IMG/VR virus record: IMGVR_UViG_3300022198_001097
Location: 1-39,607 of that record
Origin: a virus
Strand: one strand, 5' to 3'
DNA length: 39,607 nt
A model generated the notes under the pieces. That model was not told the origin of the DNA and did not search any database. It saw only the letters and a list, made by a program, of their open reading frames with translations. This document shows positions 869 through 34,704 of the stretch, piece after piece. How positions within the stretch are numbered: position 1 is the first letter of the stretch; the number at the start of each line of letters is the position of its first letter. A program made the translations under genes and the position numbers.

Positions 869-1318
869 CTCTTCGTCATCCTCATATTCTTCTTCGTCAT
901 CCGCAAACTGATCTGGAAAAGCTTGGGCAGCAAGTTCAAATACTTTTTCAAATCCAATTATTTTCATGGAATCAATTATCTCTTTTTCAAGAGATTCAGA
1001 AGAGACATCTTCTGTCTCAGAATTATTTCCCCTTACACGAGAAAGAAGTTCAAGAGCCTTTAGTGCAGTAGTTCCATTACCTGCATTACGAGCAACTTCA
1101 TACTGTTTTTCTATCTCAGATATAACATCTACATCAGTAACAATCTGACTTCGTAACTCTTCGATACGTTCAAGAATTGCAGTTTCCTGTAGTAGTCTAT
1201 ATCCTTGATTGTGTGCAGAAGCTTCACTATATCCTGCATCCTTTGCCGCCCTTGTAGCATTGTTATGCAGGATATAGTTTTGACAGAACTTCTCTTGCTT
1301 TTCTTTAAGCTGCGTCAT
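803..1318 (-). CDS. terS: Terminase small subunit (Terminase_2-like)
   Basis: The protein has 171 residues. The N-terminus reads LKEKQEKFCQNYI, then NATRAAKDAGYSEASA and a LL hydrophobic turn (residues 4-45), the classic DNA-binding helix-turn-helix of the Terminase_2 small subunits. A helical middle (about 50-110) would form the oligomerisation core. The tail is strongly acidic (about 138-150, many D/E). TerS recognises the packaging site on concatemeric DNA and hands it to TerL. The start overlaps the end of the 762-residue gene upstream by 14 nt, indicating translational coupling. It is on the opposite strand to, and about 21 kb from, terL, which is unusual. The 3' end overlaps the holin gene tail to tail by 66 nt. 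Confidence 0.8.
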   Translation of the reverse strand: MTQLKEKQEKFCQNYILHNNATRAAKDAGYSEASAHNQGYRLLQETAILERIEELRSQIVTDVDVISEIEKQYEVARNAGNGTTALKALELLSRVRGNNSETEDVSSESLEKEIIDSMKIIGFEKVFELAAQAFPDQFADDEEEYEDDEELLLTEELTRTTDTEAGSNDDT

Positions 1319-3593
1319 TCAATAACTCTGTATAGTATTTTTCCTGACCACGTTTAGATTGCTTCCAAACTGCTGCAGCTAGAGTTCCTTCACCATGGAA
1401 GTTAATACCCATGTCCATGTCTACATTATCAAACAGCTTCTCACAGTCTTGTGCCATAGCAAGTAGTTCACCTGTAGTCCAGAACTTATGACCACCTGTT
1501 TCTACCTGCATATACTTAGGCTTAGTCTTTTCTGTGTCAGTCTTTTCCTTTTTCATTTCCTCTGTCATAGTTGGAACAGAACAATCAAAACCAAACAGTT
1601 CAAAGTTTCTAAAGCCTAGTGTATGTGCAATGGCAATGGTACGCATAGCTGCACAAGTGCCACCAGTAATAAGTGTAGAGCCTTCCTCTATACCTGTAGA
1701 CTTGTCTACTACAATCTTATCCTTTACATTCATGTCACGTAGTGCATCTGAATAAGCTTGCCATCCCTTTATATTAGCACCTTGCTCAAGCAAATATTTA
1801 GTAACAGATGGGTCAGTCATAGAAGCAACAAGCATGATAGTCTTATCGTCCACTGTCTTAAACAAATCCTTACGTACTACACCATGTGTACTTGTTCCAT
1901 CAATAGGACGTGGATCTAGAATAACACAGGCAAATGGTTGGATGCCATTCTCAAGCAACTTGGGATAGCTATGCTTAACACAGAATACTTTACCTTTAGT
2001 TTGCTTGATTGTCTTCTTAACCAATTTCCAGTTAACACTATCACCGCCAGAGATAATAATAGCAGTTTCATTATTGATCTTACTAGTTTTAATCCAGTCG
2101 AAATCTTTAATAAGCTTTTTATTTTCTTTTACATTATTAATGATCTCTTCTTTAGGCCGTGAATCTTTAGGTGTAACAACAATAGGTACACGTGTTAATT
2201 CATCAGGCAGTTTAGGCAGTCCTTCTTTCATAGCAACAAAGCATAGGTGTGTAACACCACCATCCTTTACCATGTCACTGCTAGGTAGCACTACTTTAGC
2301 ATATGCCACAACCTCTTTCATTAACTGATTAACGCCATCATTCTCAGGCATACGTCCTTCTTTGTCTTTAGAAAAGTAATCATCAAAGACAAGAACAGGA
2401 ATATGTTTTAGATTTTCAAAGTCAGCTTTAACTGTTTCATATGAATGACCGCCATCAATGTATGCAAAGTCTGCACCTTTAACTGATTCACAATCTTTAA
2501 GAGTTTGTTTGGTGTCTCCTTTATATAATTCAAATGTAAACTCTTTTCCTTTTTCAAACATCTTACCACCGAACTCTTCCAGTCGTTTAGTAACGGCGGC
2601 AAGTGTATTGTGTGGTTTAGAGTTTAATTCTATATGGTCTAGTTCAGGTGTAGCTTCCTCAAATAAATCAAAGCCTACATAATGTACACTGTCTGTGTAC
2701 TGGAATGCAGCCATAGCCATTTGAATAGCACGTCCACCATTCCAAGTACCTGTCTCTACAATAGTACTTGGTCTGTAAAACCCAATCATATCAAGCAATT
2801 GCTTGTATCTCTTAGGGCCATTAACATCAGGTGCTACCTGAGTATCACTAAGTTTCTTCTTTAGATTACCCTTGAAGTGGTCGAAGTATTCTGCCAATGG
2901 AGACTGAGCAAATGCTGCAAGACCTTTTACTCCTTGTGACAGATTGTTTGTTACCATACCATGTGCTTTGTAAATATTTAACAAACGTTCAAAGATAAAT
3001 CCGTCATGCCATTCACGATAAGCAACAACCTCACCTATAGTGTAACAGCCACGAAGGTCAGCAAGTAAGCTACAAGTGTTATGAGAACTAAGGTTAAAGC
3101 CCATAAAACTTGTTTCGCTATAGTCAACGTCCATTCTACCAAGGTGGACAAGATCTGCTTTGTCTGGTAACCATTGCTTAAACTTTTCAATATCCAATCT
3201 CCTTGTGGTTACTGTGTCTGCGTCCAACCAGATCATCCAGTTGCTTTCGTCATAGACATCTTCCATCATTTCAAAAGCTAGATCGGTCATGGCATATACT
3301 TTGTGACACCATTTGATAGCATCAAGCCGCCAGTTATATGGCATATTACCACCTTCAGTACCATCGTGAAGCTTCATACGTTCACGATACTCAAGCATTT
3401 CTTCAACATCATTTAGATTACGATACTCAATTGTATCACAAACAGGATGCTCTACATTTTTAATGTCAAAGTCATGGTAGTATGCAATTAGTTTAAAATG
3501 TTTTGGATTCCATTTATCCATAACACTTTCAAGCATTTTCTTGGCATACTCATGGTAGCCTTGTTCACTGAACGATGTTACAAAAACATACAT
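1305..3593 (-). CDS. Three-domain protein: GT-A glycosyltransferase + SAM methyltransferase + MptE/DUF115-like
   Basis: The protein has 762 residues. Domain 1 (about 1-235) resembles a nucleotide-sugar glycosyltransferase with a DxD metal site at D124/D126 (MIWLDADTV). Domain 2 (about 260-455) is a class I SAM-dependent methyltransferase: motif I is IVETGTWNGG (278-287), with an acidic strand YVGFDLFEE and the YIDGGHSYE motif (378-386) of the Methyltransf_24/cephalosporin hydroxylase type. Domain 3 (about 508-760) has AIIISGGDS, then CVKHSYPKLLENGIQPFACVILDPR (538-562) and GTCAAMRTIAIAHTLGF (646-661), the pattern of MptE-like/DUF115 domains found in motility-accessory and glycan proteins. The sequence suggests a sugar-transferring and methylating enzyme that modifies phage or host glycans, or possibly DNA; the substrate is unknown. 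It starts at the stop (TAATG) of a second glycosyltransferase gene and overlaps terS. Confidence 0.7.
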   Translation of the reverse strand: MYVFVTSFSEQGYHEYAKKMLESVMDKWNPKHFKLIAYYHDFDIKNVEHPVCDTIEYRNLNDVEEMLEYRERMKLHDGTEGGNMPYNWRLDAIKWCHKVYAMTDLAFEMMEDVYDESNWMIWLDADTVTTRRLDIEKFKQWLPDKADLVHLGRMDVDYSETSFMGFNLSSHNTCSLLADLRGCYTIGEVVAYREWHDGFIFERLLNIYKAHGMVTNNLSQGVKGLAAFAQSPLAEYFDHFKGNLKKKLSDTQVAPDVNGPKRYKQLLDMIGFYRPSTIVETGTWNGGRAIQMAMAAFQYTDSVHYVGFDLFEEATPELDHIELNSKPHNTLAAVTKRLEEFGGKMFEKGKEFTFELYKGDTKQTLKDCESVKGADFAYIDGGHSYETVKADFENLKHIPVLVFDDYFSKDKEGRMPENDGVNQLMKEVVAYAKVVLPSSDMVKDGGVTHLCFVAMKEGLPKLPDELTRVPIVVTPKDSRPKEEIINNVKENKKLIKDFDWIKTSKINNETAIIISGGDSVNWKLVKKTIKQTKGKVFCVKHSYPKLLENGIQPFACVILDPRPIDGTSTHGVVRKDLFKTVDDKTIMLVASMTDPSVTKYLLEQGANIKGWQAYSDALRDMNVKDKIVVDKSTGIEEGSTLITGGTCAAMRTIAIAHTLGFRNFELFGFDCSVPTMTEEMKKEKTDTEKTKPKYMQVETGGHKFWTTGELLAMAQDCEKLFDNVDMDMGINFHGEGTLAAAVWKQSKRGQEKYYTELLNDAA

Positions 3594-4357
3594 TATATTA
3601 CATCTCCTATTGCATTATCGTAAAAAATCTTATTGGCTCTTACGTGCCAGTCACCTGCATACTCTGCATCTATCTGGCGTTTTGGTTCCCATTCTTTAAA
3701 CCAAGGACCGCCAGTAGTAAAGTGTACATTCTTTGGAGATATAGATTCACTTGACCAACCATCAAGCCAGTTCCATTCCTCATGTATGCCACCGATCTCT
3801 TCGTCTTCTAACCAAGAAAAACCATGTAACCAAGATCCAGACTTTGTGTTTACATCATCAACTGTAAGTCGTAAGTTTCCTTCGTGACCACAGTTCCATA
3901 ACACAAAGCTGGACCAGTTCTTTCTATTATATTGTTGTTGTATTTGTCCGTCCATTTTAACAGTTGCTGATGGATTGTAGTTATGCTTTACGCATTGAAT
4001 AGCATAGTCTCTATTACCATACTCTTCAAACAATTCATTTATGTTTGTACGTACAAGCATATCTGAATCCATGAACAATGCCAAACCTTCATATTGGTTT
4101 AAGGCAGGGATAAGAAAACGTGTGAATGTAAACTCTGTGCTGAAAGGTCTTCCATCGAAGACATCAACCATCACACGTTTTCCATCAATACTATCAAGCC
4201 TAGCAGACCTGCGATAAAGATTTGCTCTACGAAGAGCCTGTTGTTTAAGTGGTACAATATCATATTCCTTATTGTATTCACGTATCGAATCATGCAAGAC
4301 CTCATATGCTTCGCTTTCCCTGCCATCAAAGCCAATATAAATTACTGGACGTTTCAT
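3593..4357 (-). CDS. Glycosyltransferase (GT8-like, DxD)
   Basis: With the start at the ATG immediately after the preceding gene's stop (MKRPVIYIGFDGRES), the protein has 254 residues. VIYIGFDGRES is the first Rossmann-like strand. ALFMDSDMLV carries the DxD that binds the metal and nucleotide-sugar diphosphate. The middle FTRFLIPAL and the later SSFVLWNCGH fit GT-A fold sugar transferases of the kind common in marine phages. A longer reading frame adds eight residues upstream, but these overlap the previous gene. The gene abuts the three-domain glycosyltransferase/methyltransferase gene, suggesting a joint glycan-modifying pathway. Donor and acceptor cannot be read from the sequence. Confidence 0.7.
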   Translation of the reverse strand: MKRPVIYIGFDGRESEAYEVLHDSIREYNKEYDIVPLKQQALRRANLYRRSARLDSIDGKRVMVDVFDGRPFSTEFTFTRFLIPALNQYEGLALFMDSDMLVRTNINELFEEYGNRDYAIQCVKHNYNPSATVKMDGQIQQQYNRKNWSSFVLWNCGHEGNLRLTVDDVNTKSGSWLHGFSWLEDEEIGGIHEEWNWLDGWSSESISPKNVHFTTGGPWFKEWEPKRQIDAEYAGDWHVRANKIFYDNAIGDVI

Positions 4358-4358
4358 T

Positions 4359-4562
4359 TTACCGAATCCAGAAAGGTGCAAGAGAACTCGTGTTCCTATA
4401 ACCTAACGCTTTCAGTTCATCACGAATAGCCGCCTCTGCTTCGTTACGTGCAGCAATAGCATCACGAAGGCCAGCCGTGCGGCGTTCACGATATTCCTTA
4501 CGAAGTTCTGTCAAACGTTCTTCAGTCAGTTTGATCTCTTCTTGTAGTTCATCTAGTTCCAT
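4359..4562 (-). CDS. Small coiled-coil protein, unknown function
   Basis: The protein has 67 residues. It is highly charged and helical, with heptad-like spacing in residues 1-45 (ELDELQEEIKLTEERLTEL), then an Ala/Glu helix and a short non-helical tail. A good ribosome binding site (AAAGGAG) precedes the ATG. It ends 1 nt before the glycosyltransferase start, so the two are likely co-translated. No family is recognised; a small oligomeric or adaptor protein is possible. Confidence 0.6.
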   Translation of the reverse strand: MELDELQEEIKLTEERLTELRKEYRERRTAGLRDAIAARNEAEAAIRDELKALGYRNTSSLAPFWIR

Positions 4563-4576
4563 ATTTAACTCCTTTC

Positions 4577-4605
4577 ATAACAAAGACATAGCTATTTTAC
4601 TACAA
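4577..4605 (-). promoter_or_regulatory. Possible sigma70-type promoter (minus strand)
   Basis: On the minus strand TTGTAG is followed after 17 nt by TGTTAT in the 43-nt gap before the coiled-coil gene. The matches to TTGACA/TATAAT are partial, but the spacing is ideal and this is one of the few real gaps in the leftward operon. It would drive the coiled-coil, glycosyltransferase and terS genes. Confidence 0.3.
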
Positions 4606-5118
4606 TTAAGCCGCCATGTCAACAAGTATTTTATCAAAGTCAACAAGTTCTTTTTGTTCTGCAACAAAACATTTCTTCATAAACTTAGGTGGAAGGATGT
4701 ATCTTTCTGGTTTAAATAACTCCTTTGCTTCCATACCACCTACGATTGTGTATGATCCATATTCACCAGTAACAAGAACAAGAAGATCAATAGCTGGATT
4801 CTCTTTGTATGATATTAATCTTCCTGTCTTGTACCTTGTGTGTTTAATATCTATGGACACACCTTTATAGATGATGTCTCCGGGGTCTGTGCCACGATCA
4901 ATAGAGAAGTCACCACCAAGGAAGATTAGTTCTGGATAAACATTTAGATACTTACATACAGCAAGTTCTGCCATGTATCCTTCCCAATCTATCTTGGACT
5001 GATCCTGTGTCTTATCAACTATGCTTGGTGAATCCTGTCCATTAAACATATTACGTCTATGAACTGCACAGGTTTTTGCTACAGCCTTTTCTCTATCTGT
5101 AAGTTGTATGTTTATCAT
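4606..5118 (-). CDS. PD-(D/E)XK nuclease-like protein
   Basis: The protein has 170 residues. A conserved helix Glu (E51 in GYMAELAV) is followed by GTDPGDIIYKGVSIDIKHTR, with D81 and the D90-I-K92 pair. This is the E...D...(D/E)xK arrangement of PD-(D/E)XK nucleases. The C-terminal half alternates strand and helix with no extra motif. Proteins of this size and pattern are common in marine phages and may cut host DNA or process branched DNA. The start ATG overlaps the ribonucleotide reductase stop (ATGA), so the two genes are coupled. The assignment is from the active-site pattern only. Confidence 0.55.
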   Translation of the reverse strand: MINIQLTDREKAVAKTCAVHRRNMFNGQDSPSIVDKTQDQSKIDWEGYMAELAVCKYLNVYPELIFLGGDFSIDRGTDPGDIIYKGVSIDIKHTRYKTGRLISYKENPAIDLLVLVTGEYGSYTIVGGMEAKELFKPERYILPPKFMKKCFVAEQKELVDFDKILVDMAA

Positions 5119-7040
5119 GCCGCACTTAGATCCACGATTTCACATACACCTGCAGTACAGGCCAATTCACGTCCACCTGATGTAGTGTCTTCCTTTTCAA
5201 ACTCAGGAAGCAAAGACCAGTCCACATTCTTAGGCATCTTAGCTACCAGTTCTTTATACGTTTCAGCATCGATGTCCTGATAAGGTGCTTGCTGATATGT
5301 ATGTTCACTGAATGGTAAGAAGCTAATACCAGATACTTCATCGAAGTGTTTGTATACCCAAGCACCTACTTCCATCCATTCATTTTCCTTTACAGAAATA
5401 GTAACTGATGGTTTATGTTCACACCAATGACGCTGGTATAATAGCCACAGTTCAAGCTGTTCAATAGCAGTCATACCTGTACGTGTCACTGCATTCTTAG
5501 GTGACTTCATTGGAAAGCTAAACACTGTAGTACTATCTGGTTTAGTTACGTCTGGTTCATTAATGATACCTTGAGACTTCATAAACTCTGTCAATGGGTC
5601 TTTGTTATCACCACGAACAGTACGAATGTAGTACGGATTGTGACGTGCATGAATACCTGATGCACTATCTACTAACTGAGACACAGTACCACTAGGCTTT
5701 ACACAAGTAATGGCAGTTGATTGACTAATGCCAAGCTGTTGTGCCATAGATTTGTTAGCTTCAATAGCTGTAACACGAAGCATCTCAAGTGTGTCAGCTA
5801 CTTCTTTTCCTTTGTGAAGTATAGAACAGTCCATGATGCCTGTAAGAGACACGCCAAGCAGACGTTCTTCTTCCGTGTTCTGCTTCCAGATCTTACGGAG
5901 ATACTTGAAGTTAGTCAGAGTAGCTTGGAATGTACCAAGGATAGTTGCAAGACGTACCTTTTCTTTCAATGATAGAAGAGTATCAGTCTCACGTGCTACA
6001 ACCTCTGACAGATTACAGAACTGATAAGGACGTAGGATGATTTCAGAACAAGGGTTACAACCAAAGTCCTGATCAGCGTCACGTCTACCATTCTTAGCTG
6101 CTTGCTTCTTGGATGATTCACGGTTGAAGATACCACGTTCACCTGACTTACTGTCGTACAGTGACAACCATTCACGCATGAATGTACCCATTTCTGGCTT
6201 CTGTTTATAGGCCACAGAGTTATTAGCCAGCGCACGTTGACCTTCATTCTCCCACCACTGGCCTGACTTGGCGTGTGCCATCTGGTCATCATTAAGATTG
6301 GATAAGCTGATCAAAGCTGAACGGCGTACACCACCAACGACTACCACTTCACCAATCTTACACATGATGTCATGGCATTCAATAGGATAGAGCCTACGTC
6401 CTGCCGCACCCTTAAACTTCTCAATACAGAAGTTAAACAATTCGATCAGCGGTTGTGGGCCAGACGCACGTCCACCAAAGGTCTTCAGTCTTGCCCCTGC
6501 AGGACGAACTTCTGATACATCGAACTTAGGAACCTGACCAGTGTACAGCATAGCAATCAGTTCTTTCAATGACTTAGCCCAACCCGGACGACTATCACCT
6601 ACTTTAATTACTGTGTCTGTATTGTGAAACTCTTCATTCACTACAGGAAGTTTCTCAATGTTGTGTCGTTCCACAGAGAAGCCGACACCTGTACCACACA
6701 TAAGGATGTACATAGTTTCGTCAAATGCACGTGGACTATCCACTGGTAGATAAGAACAATTATATCCACCTACATGACAACGTTCCAATGCAGGGCCACT
6801 GGTCATCAGTGAACGCATACTTGGCATAATAGATTGGTTTAATACTGCTTCTTCCAGTTCACTTCTCAGTGAATCAGGAAGCTGATAGCCGTGATTACTA
6901 GACAGATGCCCAGCCATATAATCAAAATATCTTGATACTGTTTCATTCCATGTTTCTCGTCTTTGTTCATCTTCTTTCCACCTTGCATAACGTGATAGGG
7001 CTATAAAATTTTGATAGTCTGTAGGTAAATAATTATTCAT
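5115..7040 (-). CDS. nrdJ: Ribonucleoside-triphosphate reductase, class II, B12-dependent, monomeric
   Basis: With the start at MNNYLPTDYQ, preceded by AAAGGA 8 nt upstream, the protein has 641 residues. C88 (ALERCHVGGYNCS) is the first redox cysteine of the active-site pair. GCNPCSEI at 327-334 holds N329, C331 (thiyl radical) and E333, and C342 (QFCNLS) is the likely redox partner of C88. The C-terminus has the shuttle pair C628/C633 in CTAGVC, with the C-x4-C spacing of Lactobacillus-type RTPR. Such enzymes use adenosylcobalamin to reduce ribonucleotides to deoxyribonucleotides, feeding phage DNA synthesis in the host cytoplasm, so the host must supply or import B12. No second subunit is needed or seen. 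A likely promoter lies just upstream. Confidence 0.92.
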   Translation of the reverse strand: MNNYLPTDYQNFIALSRYARWKEDEQRRETWNETVSRYFDYMAGHLSSNHGYQLPDSLRSELEEAVLNQSIMPSMRSLMTSGPALERCHVGGYNCSYLPVDSPRAFDETMYILMCGTGVGFSVERHNIEKLPVVNEEFHNTDTVIKVGDSRPGWAKSLKELIAMLYTGQVPKFDVSEVRPAGARLKTFGGRASGPQPLIELFNFCIEKFKGAAGRRLYPIECHDIMCKIGEVVVVGGVRRSALISLSNLNDDQMAHAKSGQWWENEGQRALANNSVAYKQKPEMGTFMREWLSLYDSKSGERGIFNRESSKKQAAKNGRRDADQDFGCNPCSEIILRPYQFCNLSEVVARETDTLLSLKEKVRLATILGTFQATLTNFKYLRKIWKQNTEEERLLGVSLTGIMDCSILHKGKEVADTLEMLRVTAIEANKSMAQQLGISQSTAITCVKPSGTVSQLVDSASGIHARHNPYYIRTVRGDNKDPLTEFMKSQGIINEPDVTKPDSTTVFSFPMKSPKNAVTRTGMTAIEQLELWLLYQRHWCEHKPSVTISVKENEWMEVGAWVYKHFDEVSGISFLPFSEHTYQQAPYQDIDAETYKELVAKMPKNVDWSLLPEFEKEDTTSGGRELACTAGVCEIVDLSAA

Positions 7041-7075
7041 ATGTCGCTTCCTTTCTGAATAGTGAATAAGACTCA

Positions 7076-7104
7076 AGTGTACCACAACAGGGTCACAGTT
7101 GCAA
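7076..7104 (-). promoter_or_regulatory. Possible promoter for the ribonucleotide reductase gene
   Basis: Minus strand: TTGCAA, 17 nt, TACACT, in the 68-nt gap before nrdJ. Four of six bases match in each hexamer. The predicted start of transcription is about 30 nt before the ATG. Confidence 0.4.
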
Positions 7105-7108
7105 TAAT

Positions 7109-7435
7109 CTAATGCCCTAAAACTGCATTAATTCTTTTGCGAACATACTCTACTTCACCAGATTTAAGAACCTTGAAAGCAAAGTCACGCATATAAGAAG
7201 GATCAACGCCAGCATAGTCACAGACTACGGTGAAGTCTTCTGAAGTTACTCCGACTGATGCAAAGAACCAAGCAACTGCCCGATCTCTTTCAAGCACAGA
7301 TGAATCTGGTTCACCCATGTATGAAGGTTTCGTGGCATCAAGCAGTGCTTGTAGTATAACGCAGAGGAACAACGTCTTCTCAGGCGTTGTAACCTCATTG
7401 ATTATTTCATCTATTACTATTTCTTCTTTTTTCAT
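7109..7435 (-). CDS. Conserved phage protein, unknown function
   Basis: The protein has 108 residues. It has an acidic helical N-terminus, a hydrophobic helix TLFLCVILQALLDAT (about 19-33), then AWFFASVGVTSEDFTVVCDYAGVDPSYMRDF (about 54-84). That last part looks like a helix-turn-helix-type fold often seen in phages of marine bacteria near endonuclease I. It overlaps the end of the endonuclease I gene by 29 nt and has no strong ribosome binding site, so it depends on coupling. I recall similar proteins as hypothetical only. Confidence 0.6.
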   Translation of the reverse strand: MKKEEIVIDEIINEVTTPEKTLFLCVILQALLDATKPSYMGEPDSSVLERDRAVAWFFASVGVTSEDFTVVCDYAGVDPSYMRDFAFKVLKSGEVEYVRKRINAVLGH

Positions 7436-7829
7436 TCAGCCATTCTATTGGTATACCTTCGCCTTGCTTACAGTATTTGAAGTCATACTTCTCACACCAA
7501 TCGGCATAGGTCATCTTACCACCTTTGTATAGTTTACGATTAGGGTTATCAAATACAAATCTAATGTCATAGTCAGAACCATACTGGTCACGAATAAACA
7601 GATGTTTCTTTCTATCTTCCAACATAAACCTGCCCTTGACTTCAAGTATGACACCATTAGGTAAGATAAAATCAGGAATGTATTTTTTATCTTCAGTCCA
7701 TACATAACTGATTGGATCAGCCTCATACTTGAAATCAATCTTGTGTTTGATTAACACAGTGGCAGTATTATATTCTGAATTAGATCTGTACTTATGATCT
7801 ATGTCACGCTTTCTTCTTTTATGCGGCAT
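7407..7829 (-). CDS. Endonuclease I (T7 gp3-like Holliday junction resolvase)
   Basis: From the ATG overlapping the exonuclease stop by 11 nt, the protein has 140 residues, close to the 149 of T7 gp3. The catalytic set is present with T7 spacing: E19, D53 (YIPDFILPNG), E63 and K65 (ILEVKGRF), followed by DRKKHLFIRDQ and YDIRFVFDNPNRKLYKG, which mirror T7 gp3 almost word for word. It resolves four-way junctions and debranches replication intermediates before packaging, and may help degrade host DNA. It lies in a block with an exonuclease and SSB. The C-terminus (GEGIPIEWLNE) is also like T7. Confidence 0.93.
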   Translation of the reverse strand: MPHKRRKRDIDHKYRSNSEYNTATVLIKHKIDFKYEADPISYVWTEDKKYIPDFILPNGVILEVKGRFMLEDRKKHLFIRDQYGSDYDIRFVFDNPNRKLYKGGKMTYADWCEKYDFKYCKQGEGIPIEWLNEKRRNSNR

Positions 7830-8685
7830 CAGTAATCTCTTCAACGTTAGGTGTCTTTGCTACCTGTACTAGGTGACGGACACCATTAGAGTATTGAAAA
7901 GATCTGATACCTGTACCACCATTAGCATCGTCCCAGCATTTAAACTTGTATGGACAAAACACACATCCAATAGCAAGCTTCATATTACCAGACGTACCAT
8001 CAGGTTCTGGTTGATAACAACGTTCAGGTGGTGTTGAAGAAGAAATCATGCTCTTAACATTCCGAATACGTTCAGATGCATTGATCATATGTACAGGCTG
8101 TACTTCCATTAGTGCAAGATCTGCAGATGATTTATCAATAGCAAAGAATGCAGCTTTGTTGTCGTTACCTGCTTCAGCATATCCACTGATCTGAGCAATG
8201 TATCCGAAAGGATCATCAGAATGTAGTGTTCCTTCCTTAAACTTCTTAAAGGCGTATGGAGAAGCAGACTTGATATCTACAAGGACACCATCGATACGAC
8301 AGTCTTTGTGTCCCTTGATACCTTCAACCTCAACTTCCTCTTGTTTCTCTGTCACAGTGTGACCAGCCAGTTCTGTCAATGCAATCAACAGGGCTTCTAG
8401 GATATCTCCATATAGAAACTTGATACGAGTTTGACCGTTGATCATTTCTGCTTCAACATTTTCCTGCATATCATACCACAGTTGGCGATTAGGTTTACCT
8501 ACCTGTGACATACGCAGTCTTGGTTTTCTCCTTTCTGTTGATGGTTCTGATAATGCCTTGCGAAGAATCGAAGACATTTCACTACCAAAGTTATGTAGAA
8601 TATCTCTGTTCTGCACAGACGAAACGTTTGTACCATTCTCAAGAAGACTATATATGTCTTCAATAAGTGTATCTATCTTTTTCAT
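7819..8685 (-). CDS. RecB/Cas4-like PD-(D/E)XK exonuclease
   Basis: The protein has 288 residues. Active-site pattern: E97 (GDILEALL), D132 (DCRIDGVLV), D137-I-K139 (VDIKS) and the RecB-type Gln in YIAQISGY (Q165). The C-terminal part has CVFCPYKFKC, the C-x2-C-x5-C triplet of Cas4/AddB iron-sulfur nucleases. The partner cysteine normally found near the N-terminus before RxLWY is not present here (QVGKPNRQLWY, about 61-71), so the cluster may be incomplete. The likely role is 5'-3' or 3'-5' resection during phage recombination or host DNA degradation. The gene starts at the stop of the DUF3310 gene (TAATG) and overlaps the endonuclease I gene. Confidence 0.75.
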   Translation of the reverse strand: MKKIDTLIEDIYSLLENGTNVSSVQNRDILHNFGSEMSSILRKALSEPSTERRKPRLRMSQVGKPNRQLWYDMQENVEAEMINGQTRIKFLYGDILEALLIALTELAGHTVTEKQEEVEVEGIKGHKDCRIDGVLVDIKSASPYAFKKFKEGTLHSDDPFGYIAQISGYAEAGNDNKAAFFAIDKSSADLALMEVQPVHMINASERIRNVKSMISSSTPPERCYQPEPDGTSGNMKLAIGCVFCPYKFKCWDDANGGTGIRSFQYSNGVRHLVQVAKTPNVEEITDAA

Positions 8686-8999
8686 TACGATAGTTCCTTT
8701 CTGGTTTGTTCGTTAATAAGCTTGGCTAAATACCACTGTGCTTTCTGTAGATCTTCCATACCATTCTTATATCTATATCTCCAAAGATATTTAATTATGT
8801 TTCCTTGAAGATAATACTCAAAGCCATCACCACAAGCCGCTTCAATAGCATCAATACATTCTATACCTGAAGCATTGTAATGTGGTGGATGGTCTACCAT
8901 ATCCACATCTGATTGCTTGTTAGCTTGAACAGTTTTGGTATGCATCCACTGATCATTTAGTTCAGCTTGTTTAGCTTTCATAAAATCTTCATGTCTCAT
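8685..8999 (-). CDS. DUF3310 protein
   Basis: The protein has 104 residues. The central signature VDHPPHYNASGIECIDAIEA, then GFEYYLQGNIIKYLWRYRYKNGMEDLQKAQWYLAKLI (about 35-95), is that of the DUF3310 family of small phage proteins, sometimes annotated as nucleotide kinase-like. The biochemical role is not established. The N-terminal 30 residues are a variable helical extension. A ribosome binding site (GAAGGAG) precedes the ATG. The stop is shared with the exonuclease start. Confidence 0.8.
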   Translation of the reverse strand: MRHEDFMKAKQAELNDQWMHTKTVQANKQSDVDMVDHPPHYNASGIECIDAIEAACGDGFEYYLQGNIIKYLWRYRYKNGMEDLQKAQWYLAKLINEQTRKELS

Positions 9000-9029
9000 A
9001 AAGATGCTCCTTCTGTTTATTTAAAAGAT

Positions 9030-9060
9030 GCTGGCGTACCCACCGCTAACACAAGCCAGC
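9030..9060 (-). terminator. Weak hairpin between ssb and the DUF3310 gene
   Basis: GCTGGC (9030-9035) and GCCAGC (9055-9060) form a 6-bp GC-rich stem with a 19-nt loop. On the minus strand the stem is followed by ATCTTTT. It may attenuate transcription after the ssb gene; it is too weak to be sure. Confidence 0.3.
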
Positions 9061-9105
9061 CCACAGACATTAACTAAATGTTCTGCTCCCGATTGATGTT
9101 GTTAC

Positions 9106-9594
9106 TTAGGCTGCTGACGAAACACCAAAGTTAATGTCATCGTCATCGAAGGAAGCGTCTTCTGCATTGTAGCCGCCGGGAACAACATCAAAGTCATCGG
9201 CATCATCCTTGCCACCATAGGCCACAAGATTTACTACCTGTACAGCTTGAAGATCTGTACCGATTCCTTTGTTACCTGCATATTCCCATTCATAGGTTTT
9301 AAACAGGACGTTAACATCGGAACCATTACCAATAAGAGTACCGTGCATATCACGCTTCTGACCATCCTTCAGTGCTGGTGCAGAATTAACACCACCATCT
9401 TTACGATTTACCTTACGCTTGATACTTACAAAGTTACCACGGTCATCACCCTTGGATTTAATTTTAAGACCTAGCTTCTTGGCCTTCTCAACTTCACTTT
9501 CGTTCAAAGAAAGATCAACCTGATAGACAGGCTCATAAGTTGTGTTAGGTGTTGAGATAGATGCCCAATAAGCTTTTCCTGATAATACTGGCAT
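9106..9594 (-). CDS. Single-stranded DNA-binding protein (T7 gp2.5-like)
   Basis: The protein has 162 residues. The N-terminal two-thirds are beta-rich (YEPVYQVDLSL, VSIKRKV, VLFKTYEWEY, LQAVQVVNLVAY), as in an OB fold. The tail is strongly acidic with an aromatic (DDADDFDVV and SFDDDDINF, about 132-158), as in gp2.5-type proteins, which use the acidic C-terminus to contact polymerase and helicase. It follows DNA polymerase and precedes the nucleases in the operon. It has its own strong promoter in the 90-nt gap upstream and an AAAGGAG site, consistent with high expression. Identity to gp2.5 is by architecture, not by a long motif. Confidence 0.7.
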   Translation of the reverse strand: MPVLSGKAYWASISTPNTTYEPVYQVDLSLNESEVEKAKKLGLKIKSKGDDRGNFVSIKRKVNRKDGGVNSAPALKDGQKRDMHGTLIGNGSDVNVLFKTYEWEYAGNKGIGTDLQAVQVVNLVAYGGKDDADDFDVVPGGYNAEDASFDDDDINFGVSSAA

Positions 9595-9648
9595 GATAAA
9601 TGCTCCTTTCTTTCTATGTGGTCTTAGCCACTGTTGTATGATTTGTGA

Positions 9649-9677
9649 ATTATGACATAGGTAATTACATATGTCAA
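9649..9677 (-). promoter_or_regulatory. Strong sigma70 promoter overlapped by a 24-bp palindrome
   Basis: Minus strand: a perfect TTGACA (9677-9672), a 17-nt spacer, then CATAAT (9654-9649, five of six). It lies between the DNA polymerase stop and the ssb start. Almost the whole promoter core is occupied by the palindrome at 9653-9676: TGACATA arms around GTAATTAC, symmetric in 22 of 24 bases. This looks like an operator for a dimeric repressor or activator. Confidence 0.75.
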
Positions 9678-9684
9678 CATATAT

Positions 9685-11340
9685 TTAATGAGTTTCTGCC
9701 CAATTGTTTCCAATTTTAAATTCACTGTCCAATGGACACAGAACATTCAGTTCTTTTTCTACAAGCTTCATTGCTTTCTGTGTCATTTCACCAAAGCTTT
9801 GTGCTTGATCTTTCCGAACCTCAAACTGATACTCATCGTGGATACTAGCGACAAGGCTGTAATCAAAGCCCTGTCGTCTAGCCAATATTGTTATTTGCCT
9901 TAACCATTCTTTACAGATAATTGCACCTGCACCTTGTAACAAAAGATTAGCGGCGGCGTGTTGTTGTCGTACCTTTAGAAGTCTTCCATCAAGACCACGA
10001 ATATATCCAGTCTGTGCCGCCCTATCAATCTTATCACGCAATGATTTTAGGGCTGGCATATTAGACATAAACTTAGACATGATATCTTTACCTTCTTTAG
10101 CACCACCACCAACAATAGATCCGATCTTGAATGGCCCTGCGCCATAGATCAGAGCATATATAAAGGTCTTTGCCGCATCCCTAGTAGGAAGACCAGCGGC
10201 CTTTTGATTCGCAGTATGAATGTCACCATTCACAACCTCTTCGGTAAACCTTTTATCTCCCATGTAATGTGCGAGACACCGAAGTTCAAGAGAAGATGCA
10301 TCACACCCTAACAGTGAATACCTACTGTCTGTCGTAGTCCAAACGGCACGGCATTCCTTACCATATGGTGAGTATACCGCAGGGATTTGCGCCATGTTTG
10401 GACTGTGATGTGCCATCCTTCCTGAGATTGCTTTAAGGGTCATAACCCTACCATGAACCTTGTTGTCGTCAGCTACAACGTTAATCCATGATTTGATTTG
10501 TGATACCCTTTTTTGCAATAGCAGATATTGTGAAATCTTCTGAGCCTCTGGAATGTCTACACCATTCAGTGTACCTTCATCCACAATTGGATGTCCAGTA
10601 GGTGTGAAGCTTGTAGGCTTCCAGCCTTTTGCTATCAGACGCTTTGCAATCTGTTGGCGAGAAGCTGGATTAAAAATCTCCACATGGTCTTTCAATCTAT
10701 TACCTGTCTTTTCAGAATACCTTTCAGTAATGATAGGTGGGAAGATTGATTGCATCTCAGATTCAATATCTGCCGCTTCTTCCGAAAGCCTCGCCATTAG
10801 ACACGAAGCTTCTGGAACATTTAGTGTGAAGCCATTGCGTTCCTGTTGATCAACGATAGCCCTGATGGTGTGTTCAAGTTCGATACTCTTTGTCGAATAC
10901 TTCTGGATCATAGGCATCAAGTGATTGTACAGTTTCACTGTAAGCTTCACGTCATTCACACAGTATTCAAGCATCTGCTGATTGAAGTGTGTGAAATCTG
11001 AATAGTCTGTCTTTGGAAACCCAAGGCGTTTACCCCAAGCATCAAGAGAATGTCCATCTTCCATTGCTGGATCAACAAGCTGAGACAGGATCAGTGTATC
11101 CCGAACCTGTTTCAGTTTGATGTTACTTCCTGTCAGACGATTCAATGTAGGTGCATCGAAGGACACACCATTATGCATGATAAAAATATCATATCGTTCT
11201 GACCATTCAGGAAACTTCTTGATTGTGTCACCATGAAAAGCAAACACCTGATTGGTATCCAAATCTTGGGCAGCAATACAGTGGATGACTGTTGCGTTCA
11301 GATCATCTGTTTCTATATCTACTGCCACACGTTTATTCAT
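9685..11340 (-). CDS. DNA polymerase, family A (T7-like) with 3'-5' exonuclease
   Basis: The protein has 551 residues. Exonuclease domain: D8/E10 (VDIETD), N57/D62 (MHNGVSFD) and D130 (YCVND). Polymerase domain: GRMAHHSPNMAQIP (307-320), motif A with D347 (GCDASSLELRCLAHYM), motif B RDAAKTFIYALIYG (387-400) and motif C HDE (501-503). NGDIHTANQ and PTRDAAKTFIY match T7 polymerase very closely. The residue equivalent to E. coli Pol I F762 is Tyr395, as in T7. From exo III to the GRMAHHSPN motif there are about 80 fewer residues than in T7, about the size of the thioredoxin-binding loop, so this enzyme probably lacks it. The gene lies between a possible nuclease and ssb. It is the replicative polymerase of the phage. 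Confidence 0.95.
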   Translation of the reverse strand: MNKRVAVDIETDDLNATVIHCIAAQDLDTNQVFAFHGDTIKKFPEWSERYDIFIMHNGVSFDAPTLNRLTGSNIKLKQVRDTLILSQLVDPAMEDGHSLDAWGKRLGFPKTDYSDFTHFNQQMLEYCVNDVKLTVKLYNHLMPMIQKYSTKSIELEHTIRAIVDQQERNGFTLNVPEASCLMARLSEEAADIESEMQSIFPPIITERYSEKTGNRLKDHVEIFNPASRQQIAKRLIAKGWKPTSFTPTGHPIVDEGTLNGVDIPEAQKISQYLLLQKRVSQIKSWINVVADDNKVHGRVMTLKAISGRMAHHSPNMAQIPAVYSPYGKECRAVWTTTDSRYSLLGCDASSLELRCLAHYMGDKRFTEEVVNGDIHTANQKAAGLPTRDAAKTFIYALIYGAGPFKIGSIVGGGAKEGKDIMSKFMSNMPALKSLRDKIDRAAQTGYIRGLDGRLLKVRQQHAAANLLLQGAGAIICKEWLRQITILARRQGFDYSLVASIHDEYQFEVRKDQAQSFGEMTQKAMKLVEKELNVLCPLDSEFKIGNNWAETH

Positions 11341-11804
11341 AGTCTTATTAACTCCGCTTTATCTACAGGGATATGAAAGAAGTGTTCACCTTTCTTGATG
11401 TATCTTCCTTTTGCTTCCCTTACATCTGACTGTTCAACAATATAATCTTTAATACGCCAAGCATATTGAAGATCACCACGAAGGATATAGAAGTTAAAGA
11501 ACGGACGAGTATCCAACTGACGAACCTTATTGATAAGCTTGTGCTTACGATAAGGGATACGAATCTCTTTCCAATCTTTATTCCAATCTCCTTTCCAAGA
11601 GAACTTTATCTCTACCTCATTAAAGTAGATATTATCCGCTTTTTCGCTTTTGATGTCAACAGAAAAGTTTTCTTTGGCATCAAGTATTTTGTGCCCATTA
11701 CGAGTAAGATAACCGATAAGCTTTTTCTTAGCTGGATTATCAGCCATCTCATATCTCTGCCGTGAGAACGGAATGTTTACGGCTCCTTGTATTGGTTGTA
11801 ACAT
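11337..11804 (-). CDS. Protein of unknown function, possible PD-(D/E)XK fold
   Basis: The protein has 155 residues. After a basic N-terminal part comes NFSVDIKSEKAD followed by NEVEIKFSWKGDW and IRIPYRKHKL (about 42-90). A D, then an E-x-K on a strand (EVEIK), then a basic helix is the layout of PD-(D/E)XK nuclease folds. The rest (FFNFYILRGDLQYAWRIKDY) alternates strand and helix. It lies between primase-helicase and polymerase with 1-4 nt overlaps on both sides, so it is probably part of the replication machinery. A nuclease role is inference from one motif. Confidence 0.5.
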   Translation of the reverse strand: MLQPIQGAVNIPFSRQRYEMADNPAKKKLIGYLTRNGHKILDAKENFSVDIKSEKADNIYFNEVEIKFSWKGDWNKDWKEIRIPYRKHKLINKVRQLDTRPFFNFYILRGDLQYAWRIKDYIVEQSDVREAKGRYIKKGEHFFHIPVDKAELIRL

Positions 11805-13462
11805 TATAGAAAATCTCCTATGTCTGTTGGTTCATTACCTGTTTCAAATGGGTTCTCAATCTCAGACAACCTACCACTTTCTTTATCGTAAAGCAAGTAA
11901 CAAGCTATGCCTGTATCCCCTGCGTAACGGTTCTTCAGGACTCGTACAGCCGTTGTATTAGCTTCGATGGGGTCATCAGCCTGTTGGTTCCTTTCAAGGG
12001 CTATAACAGCGTCTGAAAGCTGGGCAATGCTATGTGATCCACGAAGCTGGCTAAGTGAGATAGCACCGCCTTGTTCCTGTCCTTTGTCACCAGACATACG
12101 GCGTAGGTGGGACACTAGAAGAAGACCACATTGAGTTTCCTCAACCAAACTACGAAGCTTGGTCATCAGCATATCAATGTTCCGGCGTTCATCCCCATCG
12201 TCCAGACCGGACACAAGGATAGACAGATGATCAATCACTACAAACTTACAGTCCATAGCCTTGACCATGTATCGAACCTTGGCAAGGATCTCATCTGTTG
12301 TGATAGAACCGAAGTGATTGAAAGCAATGATCCGTGGATTACTGATTGTGTCTTCAATGTATGGTTCCATTTCTTCACGGCTCATATTACTGCGAACCTC
12401 TTTGATGAACAGCCTTTTGTTTGCAGGGATGGACATCAGATGCCGCATGGTCTGCTTGTAGTTTTCTTCCAAGTGAATCAGACCAATGTTTGATTCGGTG
12501 TTCTTCAGCATATGGTATTCAAGTTCATACATCATGCTGGTCTTACCTGCACCAGTACCTGCCGTAATGGTTACAAGTTCACCAGTACGAATGCCGTACA
12601 GCTTCTCATTCAATCCATGATAGGGATAAAGAACAGTGTCCTGATCTTCTTCCTCAAACAGTTCGTCAATGTGATCACAAAGACGGATGATACCTGCAGG
12701 TGTGTATGGTTTAGCATTCCACCAATCCCTAGAGAATTGTTCACGCTTGTTTGCTTTCAGGTATTCGTTAGCATCCTTGAATGTCATTGACATTACCAAG
12801 CATTTGTTTGGTTCAAAGATCTGAGCCACCTGATTCGCAGCTTTCTGTCCATGCTCATCACTGTCAAAGCACAGTACAATCTTATCGAATCCATTCAGGT
12901 AATCGTAGTTAGCTTTTACATCACGGACTGCAGACTGTGCGCCGTTCTTGATAGAAACGACAGGCCACTTTGATCCAAGCATTTCATAAGCTGACATGGC
13001 ATCCAGTTCGCCTTCACAAACTGTCACAAACTTACCACCTGATTTGAATTTTTGTGAACCAAACAGGGATGCATCAGGTAGATTACCTTCTACATAAAAA
13101 CCTTTCCTGTTTACTTCTCTTACTTTGTTAGCAATAAACTTTTGATTGGCATCAAAGTAAGGATAGATATGTTTTGTAATTTTATTATCAGATGACCATA
13201 TAGTTTTAACATTATAAAACTTACAGGTATCTTCACTGATTGCACGATCCTGAATCGGGGTGATAGCACCATCAGAAAAATGTGGTTGTACTACGCCACG
13301 GATCGGGGCTTGTTGTTGTGGTTGCATACCATCTCCTTTCGTATAGGTTTGACATGAGAAACAATATTTACTGTTGTCATCGTATAACACATTGGCATCA
13401 GAAGATCCACACTGTGTGCATTCACCACGACTAACAACCCTTGCTTTATCAGAGGTATTCAT
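11804..13462 (-). CDS. Bifunctional primase-helicase (T7 gp4-like)
   Basis: The protein has 552 residues against 566 in T7 gp4. The N-terminal zinc finger is C15/C18/C34/C37 (CTQCG and YCFSC). The TOPRIM primase domain has E150 (VTVCEGELDAM) and D200/D202 (LCFDSDEHG). The RecA/DnaB-like helicase has Walker A AGTGAGKTS (301-309), Walker B FVVIDH with D411, LLLVSHLRR (447-455) and SQLRGSHSIAQLSDAVIALER (471-491). The end, TDIGDFL, is acidic with a terminal aromatic, as in T7 gp4, where this tail contacts the polymerase. It unwinds the fork in the cytoplasm and makes primers for the T7-like polymerase encoded two genes downstream. Confidence 0.95.
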   Translation of the reverse strand: MNTSDKARVVSRGECTQCGSSDANVLYDDNSKYCFSCQTYTKGDGMQPQQQAPIRGVVQPHFSDGAITPIQDRAISEDTCKFYNVKTIWSSDNKITKHIYPYFDANQKFIANKVREVNRKGFYVEGNLPDASLFGSQKFKSGGKFVTVCEGELDAMSAYEMLGSKWPVVSIKNGAQSAVRDVKANYDYLNGFDKIVLCFDSDEHGQKAANQVAQIFEPNKCLVMSMTFKDANEYLKANKREQFSRDWWNAKPYTPAGIIRLCDHIDELFEEEDQDTVLYPYHGLNEKLYGIRTGELVTITAGTGAGKTSMMYELEYHMLKNTESNIGLIHLEENYKQTMRHLMSIPANKRLFIKEVRSNMSREEMEPYIEDTISNPRIIAFNHFGSITTDEILAKVRYMVKAMDCKFVVIDHLSILVSGLDDGDERRNIDMLMTKLRSLVEETQCGLLLVSHLRRMSGDKGQEQGGAISLSQLRGSHSIAQLSDAVIALERNQQADDPIEANTTAVRVLKNRYAGDTGIACYLLYDKESGRLSEIENPFETGNEPTDIGDFL

Positions 13463-13679
13463 CTTTGATTATTAACTCCTCTTCTGTGTACTCACTATAG
13501 ATACATTTAAGATTATCGGATTGATCGTAGACAAATAACATATTTCCATCTGTTATTTCTGTCTTAAATCCGACTGCTTTTAGCATCCTTTGTCTATCTT
13601 CTAACCATTCGACAACATCATCTGTCTCTTCAAACCTGTATGGATGTTTGTCTTTGGTCTTCAGCATGATTTGTTTCAT
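13449..13679 (-). CDS. Small protein of unknown function
   Basis: The protein has 76 residues from the ATG preceded by AAGGA (8-nt spacer). A beta-alpha start (KTKDKHPYRFEETDDVVEWLEDRQRMLKAV) is followed by short strands and an acidic tail (EEELIIKDEYL). It begins 1 nt after the zinc-ribbon gene stop and overlaps the primase-helicase start by 14 nt. No family is recognised. Confidence 0.6.
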   Translation of the reverse strand: MKQIMLKTKDKHPYRFEETDDVVEWLEDRQRMLKAVGFKTEITDGNMLFVYDQSDNLKCIYSEYTEEELIIKDEYL

Positions 13680-15269: not shown

Positions 15270-15791
15270 TTATTCTCCTTTCATCCAGCTAGGTTTTTGT
15301 CGGCCTTTATTATAACGAGCAATTTTAGTTTTGGCAACAACATAAAAAGAACGATACGCCATGACAGGCCACTTCTCATCTGTCTTACATTCATCGTGAC
15401 CACTGAAGCACTGTGGATGTGGTGTCATCTGTCCTTCAGGTATGTAGTGTCTAGCATACAGTAAATGTTGTGGCCTAGCGTTGGGGTTGGTTGTGCTAGG
15501 GTTGCCAGCCCCATGCCACTTACCATATCTATGATGGTATTCTGCAAGCATAGATGTGTATAGATTGAAAGCGTACACAAAGTTGGCACGAGTTTCCATA
15601 GCCCATCGTGTACACGGATGATTCTTATGCGCTGGTTTGTATAGTTCGTGATGCTCTGCATACTCAGGTGCATGATGCCATATAGCAGTGCATAGCATCT
15701 GTGCTTCTTCCAAAGGCATCTTGACTATGTGCTTGTCGCATAGCTGTTTAGCTATTGCGTCAGGGTGGTGGTCAATTATGAATCTATTCAT
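15270..15791 (-). CDS. Conserved phage protein of the CDKHxVKM..AQML type
   Basis: With the start at MNRFIIDHHPD, where AGGAG lies 7 nt upstream, the protein has 173 residues. The frame extends seven codons further, but that stretch contains the ribosome binding site. Key motifs: LCDKHIVKMPLEEAQMLCTA (about 17-36), HPCTRWAMETRANFVYAFNLY and a C-terminal KWPVMAYRSFYVVAK. The His/Cys-rich core (CDKH, HH, HPC, CFSGHDEC) suggests metal binding. I recall this family as widespread in phages and uncharacterised. The start A overlaps the preceding stop (TAATG). Confidence 0.65.
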   Translation of the reverse strand: MNRFIIDHHPDAIAKQLCDKHIVKMPLEEAQMLCTAIWHHAPEYAEHHELYKPAHKNHPCTRWAMETRANFVYAFNLYTSMLAEYHHRYGKWHGAGNPSTTNPNARPQHLLYARHYIPEGQMTPHPQCFSGHDECKTDEKWPVMAYRSFYVVAKTKIARYNKGRQKPSWMKGE

Positions 15792-15997
15792 TATATAACT
15801 CCTAATACCCAATTTTCTGCACAGTTTTCGGCATACACCTCACTGTGTCCTTTGAGGTTACGTTCTTCTTTTACCTCGCCATCCTGTATCATGTAAACAG
15901 TATAACTACCATCTGGCTCAACAAAGACAGTCGCTTTGCGGTATGCACCCATGCCACGACTGCAATCTTCATCACTGTAAAACTCATGCAACAGCAT
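15791..15997 (-). CDS. Small protein of unknown function
   Basis: The protein has 68 residues from the ATG 7 nt after AGGAG (MLLHEFYSDEDC); an in-frame ATG two codons earlier is too close to the site. Strand-rich middle ATVFVEPDGSYTVYMIQDGEVKEE. Stop and next start share TAATG. No family is recognised. Confidence 0.55.
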   Translation of the reverse strand: MLLHEFYSDEDCSRGMGAYRKATVFVEPDGSYTVYMIQDGEVKEERNLKGHSEVYAENCAENWVLGVI

Positions 15998-20722: not shown

Positions 20723-20818
20723 TTGTGATGATCAGTTTTACATCGTGATCAGGATGTAGTCCATGCAAGTTAGGCCTTGCTTCGCCTTGTGATGATCAGT
20801 TTTACTTCGTGATCAGGA
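20723..20818. repeat. Two 32-bp direct repeats with a 32-bp spacer
   Basis: Copies at 20723-20754 and 20787-20818 start TTGTGATGATCAGTTTTAC and end CGTGATCAGGA; they differ at one base. Each holds two TGATCA sites. The 32-nt spacer contains a small inverted repeat GCAAG/CTTGC. A further TGATCA is at 20854-20859, about one period on. It lies in the untranslated stretch before the 64-residue gene. The geometry is CRISPR-like, but with two copies and no cas genes an operator or duplication is more likely. Confidence 0.8.
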
Positions 20819-20911
20819 AGTGTCGTCAGTACACTACGCCTACCAACCGTGGCTGATCATGGTACAAAGCCCCATGAGGATAGGCTATTCGGAAAATGAA
20901 AAAATGAATAT

Positions 20912-20965
20912 TTAGAACAGGGAATAATATATATACCCTAAAGGGTATATTATTCCCTGTTCTAA
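20912..20965. terminator. Long hairpin 1 (asymmetric palindrome), possible terminator
   Basis: Left arm 20912-20939 starts TTAGAACAGGGAATAATAT, right arm 20942-20965 ends ATTATTCCCTGTTCTAA, with a 2-nt loop. The left arm has 4 extra nt (an additional ATAT). It sits between the stop of the 105-residue gene and the next leftward gene. On the minus strand it is followed by an AT-rich run with TTTTTT about 10 nt on. It may stop or process leftward transcripts. Confidence 0.6.
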
Positions 20966-20978
20966 TTGTTACCGGATT

Positions 20979-33663: not shown

Positions 33664-34704
33664 ATGGCACTTCCTCTTTTATTTATGATTGGTGGTACAC
33701 TAGTTAGAGCAGCAGGTCCAACAATTGCTAGAGAATTAGCTAAGTTAGGAGCAAAAAAATTAGCTGGTAAAGCTGCTACTGAAGCAGCTAAAAAGGGTAC
33801 AGCTAAACTTATTAATAATTCTAATCTTGGTGTAGTAAGAACTCTTGCACGTCCCGGTACTAAAGTAGCAGATAAAGTAGATGACTTAGCAGCAGGTGTA
33901 ACACGTACTATCGGTCGTGGTAATAAAATTAAACCACCTAAACCAAGTAGTACAACAACACCTAAACCTAGTGCTACTGCTAAACCAAAACCTAGTACTA
34001 CAGCTAAACCAAAAACTGCTACTGGTGCAGGTAAACCTACTATGGCTAAACCTAAACCAACAACTAAACCTAGTACTACAGCTAAACCAAAAACAAGACC
34101 AACTACTCCACCACCACGTCCTGCAACTGGTGGACCAAAAAGTGTAGTCAAGCCTTTATTAGGTGCTGCAGGTGTAGCAGGAACAATGTTAGGTGTTAGT
34201 ACACTTGGTAAAGATGATAAAGGTAAATCTAAAGCAATGCCTTTGCCTAAACCAAAACCAAAAGTACAAGGTCCACCTATGGGACCACCACGTGTATCTG
34301 GTTCTGATACAGAAGCAGGTAGACCAAAAGTTCCTGTTCCAACATCTTTTAATAAAGGTGCTAATACTGGCTTTGGTATTAATGCAAGCACTTTTGTTGG
34401 CGGTCCAGAAGAACGTGCCGTTATGATGAAGTATTATGGTGGTACAGGTAAAGAAGCAGCAAAGGCAGCTATGGCAGGTACTCAAGGTAAATTAAAAGAA
34501 CTTGGCATGGATGCACTTAAAAAAGAATTAGCTGCTGCTAAAGCAATTCGTTTTAAACGTGATGCTGCAAAAACTAAAAATAATAAGACTGGTGGTAAAA
34601 TGAAATCTTACAGTAAAGGTGGTAAGATTGGCATGAAGAAAAAACCAGAAGTAGTTGCTCGTCAAATGCGTGGTTGGGGTAAGGCTCGTAAACCAAAGCG
34701 GTAA
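33664..34704 (+). CDS. Lys/Pro/Thr-repeat virion protein with KGGKI tail
   Basis: The protein has 346 residues. A hydrophobic start (MALPLLFMIGGTLVRAAGPT) and a basic helix lead into a repeat of KPKPSTTAKPK type (about 97-155), a Gly/Pro/Ala middle (GGPKSVVKPLLGAAGVAGTMLG, a possible membrane-active helix about 158-179), and the tail SKGGKIGMKKKPEVVARQ, then MRGWGKARKPKR. The hydrophobic segments could matter for ejection through the membrane. Its end resembles that of the preceding protein. Confidence 0.55.
   Translation: MALPLLFMIGGTLVRAAGPTIARELAKLGAKKLAGKAATEAAKKGTAKLINNSNLGVVRTLARPGTKVADKVDDLAAGVTRTIGRGNKIKPPKPSSTTTPKPSATAKPKPSTTAKPKTATGAGKPTMAKPKPTTKPSTTAKPKTRPTTPPPRPATGGPKSVVKPLLGAAGVAGTMLGVSTLGKDDKGKSKAMPLPKPKPKVQGPPMGPPRVSGSDTEAGRPKVPVPTSFNKGANTGFGINASTFVGGPEERAVMMKYYGGTGKEAAKAAMAGTQGKLKELGMDALKKELAAAKAIRFKRDAAKTKNNKTGGKMKSYSKGGKIGMKKKPEVVARQMRGWGKARKPKR
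33991..34094 (+). repeat. Coding repeat in the Lys/Pro/Thr linker
   Basis: A 26-nt sequence beginning CCTAGTACTACAGCTAAACC occurs at 33991-34016 and 34069-34094; shorter KPK-coding versions lie around them. It reflects the KPSTTAKPK protein repeat and could expand or shrink by slippage. Confidence 0.75.

Follow-up and report, generated by a model that had tools for sequence, protein, structure and literature searches.

A glycosyltransferase-methyltransferase-MptE fusion in an uncultivated marine phage lineage: a candidate protein glycosylation pathway

Introduction

What would a bacteriophage do with a protein that joins a sugar transferase, a methyltransferase and a relative of flagellin glycosylation enzymes in one polypeptide? 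The question is raised by a stretch of viral DNA of 39,607 nucleotides (IMG/VR record IMGVR_UViG_3300022198_001097), referred to here as the window. From its sequence, one gene was predicted to encode a fusion of a GT-A glycosyltransferase, a SAM-dependent methyltransferase and an MptE/DUF115-like domain, and to form a two-gene glycan pathway with the glycosyltransferase gene beside it (GT2); virions, host surface sugars and DNA were all named as possible substrates. We put at about even chances the reading that the two proteins act in the cytoplasm and build a short methylated glycan on a protein produced in the infected cell, with a structural protein of the virion as the likeliest target. 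If this is right, a lineage of uncultivated marine phages encodes a compact pathway for sugar-coating and methylating an infection-stage protein.

Known parts in a new architecture

The three-domain gene (GT-A/O-methyltransferase/MptE-DUF115) is an ORF encoding 762 aa at positions 1305–3593; the gene, its domains and motifs and its two flanking genes all lie on the minus strand. Genome mining for the same domain order, which the original prediction had proposed as a check, yielded 101 distinct full-length three-domain sequences, and the architecture is therefore not a product of chance. All three domain assignments were borne out by Pfam matches or AlphaFold2 folds. The model of the whole protein, computed from 31 aligned sequences of the window and the loci, has a mean pLDDT of 86.7, and the relative placement of its domains is uncertain, since the pTM is 0.54. 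A single Foldseek run of this model against the PDB, again a check proposed beforehand, returned the Maf structure 5mu5, GT-A enzymes, O-methyltransferases of the COMT/TrmR type and 8sd5, upholding the three assignments. The DxD motif and SAM motif I, whose loss from all homologues had been named as evidence against the fusion, are kept in nearly all of them. Purifying selection acts on each of the three domains (median dN/dS about 0.05–0.16). Hydropathy analysis finds no membrane-spanning segment in either protein of the pair (highest 19-residue values 1.13 and 0.77), which fits cytoplasmic protein glycosylation.

The 762-aa protein is made of known parts in a new architecture. No paper describing this architecture was found in the open-licence literature, the scope of which makes this weak evidence. 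A BFVD entry from an uncultured Caudovirales phage, A0A6J7X5Q0 ("Methyltransferase domain containing protein"), aligns at 33% identity over 761 alignment columns and apparently has the same architecture; it is uncharacterised, and its name covers one domain only. We know of no homologue with this domain combination whose activity is known.

The N-terminal domain (residues 1–250; 2844–3593) gave no match in a Pfam scan. Its model resembles GT-A enzymes of the GT6, LARGE1 and GT8 kinds in the PDB, including α1,3-galactosyltransferase (a1,3-GalT), LARGE1 and XXYLT1 by Foldseek, and both the GT-A fold and a DxD motif are present. With GT8 and GT6-type enzymes it shares this fold, the DxD and a His-x-Lys-Gly motif near the domain end, and it differs from them in matching no Pfam family. 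The predicted DxD (D124-A-D126; 3216–3224) proved to be conserved: in the active-site alignment (126 sequences in all), 121 of 124 homologues have Asp at both positions and three (L164, L215, L220) have Asn. Stand-alone homologues of this domain occur in Pelagibacter phage Mosig and in MW202713 (28–29% identity), and a search of cultured phage records with the whole protein found only two stand-alone GT relatives.

The middle domain (residues 251–462; 2208–2843) matches PF13578 (Methyltransf_24) at residues 279–398 with an E-value of 7.1e-11, above the curated cut-off, and has COMT-like folds among its structural matches; 12 of 31 homologues also match TylF (PF05711). By motif, Pfam family and modelled fold it is predicted to be a TylF/COMT-type O-methyltransferase. 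SAM motif I, VETGTWNGGRA (279–289; 2727–2759), includes E280 and G282, which are unchanged in every aligned homologue that has the domain. The YIDGGHS motif (378–384; 2442–2462) is present as first described, and its D380 would be the first residue of a putative acidic metal site completed by D404 and D405 of VFDDY (402–406; 2376–2390). Like the window domain, TylF and COMT-type enzymes have SAM motif I, D380, the D404/D405 motif and the fold; unlike them, the window domain is part of a larger protein, and in some homologues its metal site has decayed.

How far does this decay go? The putative metal site is intact in the window and changed in 24 of about 114 domain-bearing homologues, with D380G in 18 aligned homologues and D405H or D405N in 24. 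The combination D380G/H383N/D405H is found in 15 of the 24 and D404N/D405N in six, which form two groups; the remaining three carry D380G/H383N/D405N and are the same three that lack the DxD. Methyltransferase domains with a decayed site nevertheless remain under purifying selection, the median dN/dS being 0.125 in the large decayed group (27 pairs), compared to 0.158 among intact sequences (600 pairs), and 0.075 in the small decayed groups (3 pairs). Catalytic methylation thus looks optional while the domain is retained. The original picture of a three-part enzyme stands as regards its domains; the methyltransferase, on the other hand, is dispensable, since some fusions lack it and others have lost its metal site, and in the alignments the glycosyltransferase and MptE parts look like the core.

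The MptE/DUF115 domain and its relation to Maf

The C-terminal domain (residues 463–762; 1308–2207) matches PF01973 (MptE-like) at residues 483–673 (E 1.2e-15; 58.2 bits against a cut-off of 34.6). Its conserved features include the LDPRP...STHG motif (559–571; 1881–1919), in which D560, R562, T569 and H570 are invariant in 119 sequences, and FWTTGE (704–709; 1467–1484), in which T707 and E709 are invariant in 116. The checked residues of the LDPRP, STHG, GGT and FWTTGE motifs show no departures in the alignment, and D670 is replaced by Glu in seven aligned sequences. Two loci, L019 and L148, have an in-frame gap of about 27 aa spanning LDPRP and STHG, which is either a real deletion or an assembly error.

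PF01973 includes both the Maf flagellin glycosyltransferases and the archaeal 6-hydroxymethylpterin diphosphokinase MptE. Is the phage domain closer to the latter? It is not. Modelled alone (pLDDT 88.7), it matches Maf from Magnetospirillum first among PDB folds (5mu5, E 5.3e-8) and the M. jannaschii HPPK second (8sd5, E 9.3e-6), and a sequence profile run against the PDB up to an E-value of 10 found a single chain, Maf 5mu5 (E 0.015), in two collinear stretches, one a GxGPS-type motif and the other an LGFRxxxLFGxD motif. Comparison to bacterial Maf sequences with hhalign gave a probability of 82% and an E-value of 1e-5. The predicted kinship with flagellin glycosylation proteins was therefore well placed, Maf being the closest relative in both fold and sequence. 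The window domain shares PF01973 and the overall fold with MptE; unlike MptE, it has glycan genes both as fusion partners and as neighbours. For these phage genes, the name "MptE-like, pterin diphosphokinase" is probably misleading.

Maf enzymes glycosylate Ser and Thr residues of flagellin (PMC11339370). They have, like the window protein, a PF01973 core with a Rossmann-type domain ahead of it; unlike them, the window protein has an extra GT-A domain and lacks a flagellin context, and no counterpart of the C-terminal helical bundle of Maf was seen in it. The Maf_flag10_N family (PF20157) occurs neither in the window protein nor among the families listed for 31 homologues, whereas an identical scan found it in two bacterial Maf proteins. 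The window protein, judged by this missing family, is not a Maf in the strict sense. The Rossmann-type domain of Maf has itself been reported to bear weak similarity to methyltransferase motifs (PMC11339370). One might suppose that marine phages have protein O-glycosylation machinery of their own, in which the methyltransferase joined to a DUF115 glycosyltransferase has time and again lost its catalysis and is maintained by selection as a scaffold. Maf may itself descend from such a fusion, since its N-terminal domain is likewise a degenerate Rossmann fold with weak motifs of this kind; we consider this whole scenario quite unlikely. A direct sequence link between the window methyltransferase domain and the Maf N-terminal domain was sought and not found, as the methyltransferase profile matches COMT-like enzymes and not 5mu5.

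Gene pairing and the path from separate genes to a fusion

GT2 (3593–4357) encodes a GT8-like glycosyltransferase of 254 aa, whose match to PF01501 (E 1.6e-4) is below the curated cut-off and whose D97xD99 motif is conserved among GT2 homologues. The start of the three-domain gene overlaps it by 1 nt (TAATG). GT2 lies directly upstream of the GT domain in 203 of the 205 loci having room for it, a count in which redundant and overlapping loci appear repeatedly; among 99 distinct junctions, the two are within 30 nt of each other in 86, of which 37 have the 1-nt overlap. With the domain matches, the folds and this pairing, the interpretation as a two-gene glycan pathway holds. On the other side, the 3' end of the three-domain gene overlaps by 14 nt the gene for the terminase small subunit (803–1318; PF03592, E 1.2e-15, and synteny), a conserved neighbour outside the glycan pathway.

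How did the fusion arise? In the basal relatives, GT2, GT and MptE are separate genes in operons. Six distinct MptE sequences are of this separate type (L158/L166, L167, L168, L169, L170 and L171); that of L158 had no match among cultured phage records. Between these genes lie methyltransferase genes (Methyltransf_23, and Methyltransf_24 or TylF), a further GT-like gene and, in some operons, a cytidylyltransferase-mannose-isomerase cupin gene. Ten distinct sequences are GT-MptE fusions without a methyltransferase, and three-domain proteins account for 91 distinct MptE domains. In the terminase tree, the separate type is outermost, followed by the GT-MptE type and then the three-domain clade (support 84/86), the GT-MptE type being represented by a single row and the branches being long. 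In the MptE tree, the GT-MptE fusions of L182 and L190 fall within the three-domain proteins, suggesting secondary loss of the methyltransferase. The separate MptE scored for L044 comes from a truncated contig, and a frameshift may explain why L187 is split into GT-MT and MptE. Since the genes fused here are neighbours elsewhere, their functions are linked. If this reconstruction is right, the relatives preserve a series from separate genes to one polypeptide, which makes it possible to test what each part does and why they were fused.

Distribution and phage lineage

The three-domain gene is no one-off; it is widespread among the members of a lineage of uncultivated marine phages. In scans of viral contigs, the whole protein had 44 relatives, the GT domain at least 535 and the MptE domain at least 569. 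The usual order in contigs with the three-domain gene is ribonucleotide reductase (RNR), GT2, the three-domain gene and the terminase small subunit, and in the window lineage the pair sits in a replication and packaging block and not beside the capsid gene, which is a point against a virion target. By capsid and terminase, the lineage is distantly related to DSL-LC04, CRP-902 and HTVC023P: the best listed matches are HTVC023P for the terminase (39% identity), DSL-LC04 for the capsid (56%) and HTVC115P for the polymerase (45%). The capsid is common to 15 of 18 related records and the large terminase to 14.

The B12-dependent RNR of the window (5115–7085) is 82% identical to that of HMO-2011 and is the only compared gene near that phage. 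Assignment to the HMO-2011 type from the RNR was rejected, HMO-2011 being absent among the best matches listed for terminase, capsid and polymerase. An HMO-2011-like RNR beside a terminase and capsid of another group likely reflects gene exchange. A homologue in a contig of a Sneathiella MAG (L164; 47% to the window protein) has phage-like neighbours and has lost both the DxD and the metal site; the contig may represent a prophage or else a phage contig that was binned with the MAG.

What is glycosylated?

The domain folds, conserved motifs, gene pairing, separate-to-fused series and purifying selection are computed results; which reactions take place, in what order, with which donor sugars and on which target is inferred. 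A glycan pathway best accounts for the co-occurrence with a glycosyltransferase, with sugar O-methyltransferases and with a nucleotidyltransferase. In this pathway, the upstream GT8-like enzyme and the GT-A domain at the N-terminus would each add one sugar, taken from a nucleotide sugar that the host makes. O-methylation of a sugar, with SAM and a divalent metal, would fall to the middle domain, and the Maf-like MptE/DUF115 domain would attach or cap the glycan at Ser/Thr of an infection-stage protein. Ten related records searched for a nucleotide-sugar dehydratase (PF16363) contained none, and the donors are for this reason assumed to be supplied by the host.

Distant MptE genes within structural modules point to a virion protein as the target. 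In L163, such a gene (24% identity) adjoins that for the major head protein; in L271, one lies near an SU10-type adaptor; and in L270, a bacterial genome, a cassette lying between terminase and portal (5150–13578) includes an MptE-like gene along with a ConA-like lectin fold, two sulfotransferases and a TPR protein. These cases are, however, distant relatives, and such positions can also host lysogenic-conversion genes. The L163 gene is itself an MptE-Methyltransf_23 fusion, in a region (1257–8348) that also has radical SAM and sulfotransferase genes. An ORF in the structural region of the window (33664–34704) has a Lys/Pro/Thr-rich repeat (KPSTTAKPK) and is a conceivable O-glycan acceptor. 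As the acceptor, this Thr/Pro-rich linker protein was rejected, with matches in only three of 18 related records.

Might the pair instead alter the host surface, for instance as a block to superinfection? The glycan would then be built on LPS or capsule precursors, with MptE as another glycosyltransferase, which we regard as possible but rather unlikely. The separate-gene operons do resemble small polysaccharide loci, with their several sugar O-methyltransferases and glycosyltransferases and, in some, a cytidylyltransferase-cupin, and sulfotransferases accompany distant MptE genes. The known PF01973 glycosyltransferases, the Maf proteins, are however cytoplasmic and act on protein, and the genes examined included no recognisable membrane segment, flippase or lipid-linked enzyme. 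Pelagiphage glycosyltransferases were associated with LPS modification in an earlier study, according to PMC9599517, which counts for a surface role.

The second-best structural match, to HPPK, means that the fold alone is no proof of glycosyl transfer, and it is the point in favour of taking MptE as a pterin or other pyrophosphokinase and the fusion as one of cofactor metabolism. Such a role is very unlikely, given the precedence of Maf in structure and profile, the glycosyltransferases that accompany the gene throughout the lineage and the lack of any folate or pterin gene among those examined. Glycosylation and methylation of phage DNA bases, the third of the substrates first suggested, appears highly improbable and found no support. 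Glycosyltransferases acting on DNA are known from phages, and PHROG 2675, labelled DNA methyltransferase, weakly matches the methyltransferase domain (E 4.9e-6); this domain, however, groups with TylF/COMT-type small-molecule O-methyltransferases, and the window ORFs scanned against families include no match to an enzyme that would provide an acceptor, such as a base hydroxylase or hydroxymethylase.

Elsewhere in the window, an ORF at 15270–15812 resembles pyrimidine dimer DNA glycosylases (PF03013), and positions 20723–20970 hold a pair of 35-nt direct repeats (94% alike) separated by 64 nt, and after them a 25-nt inverted repeat whose loop is 14 nt long.
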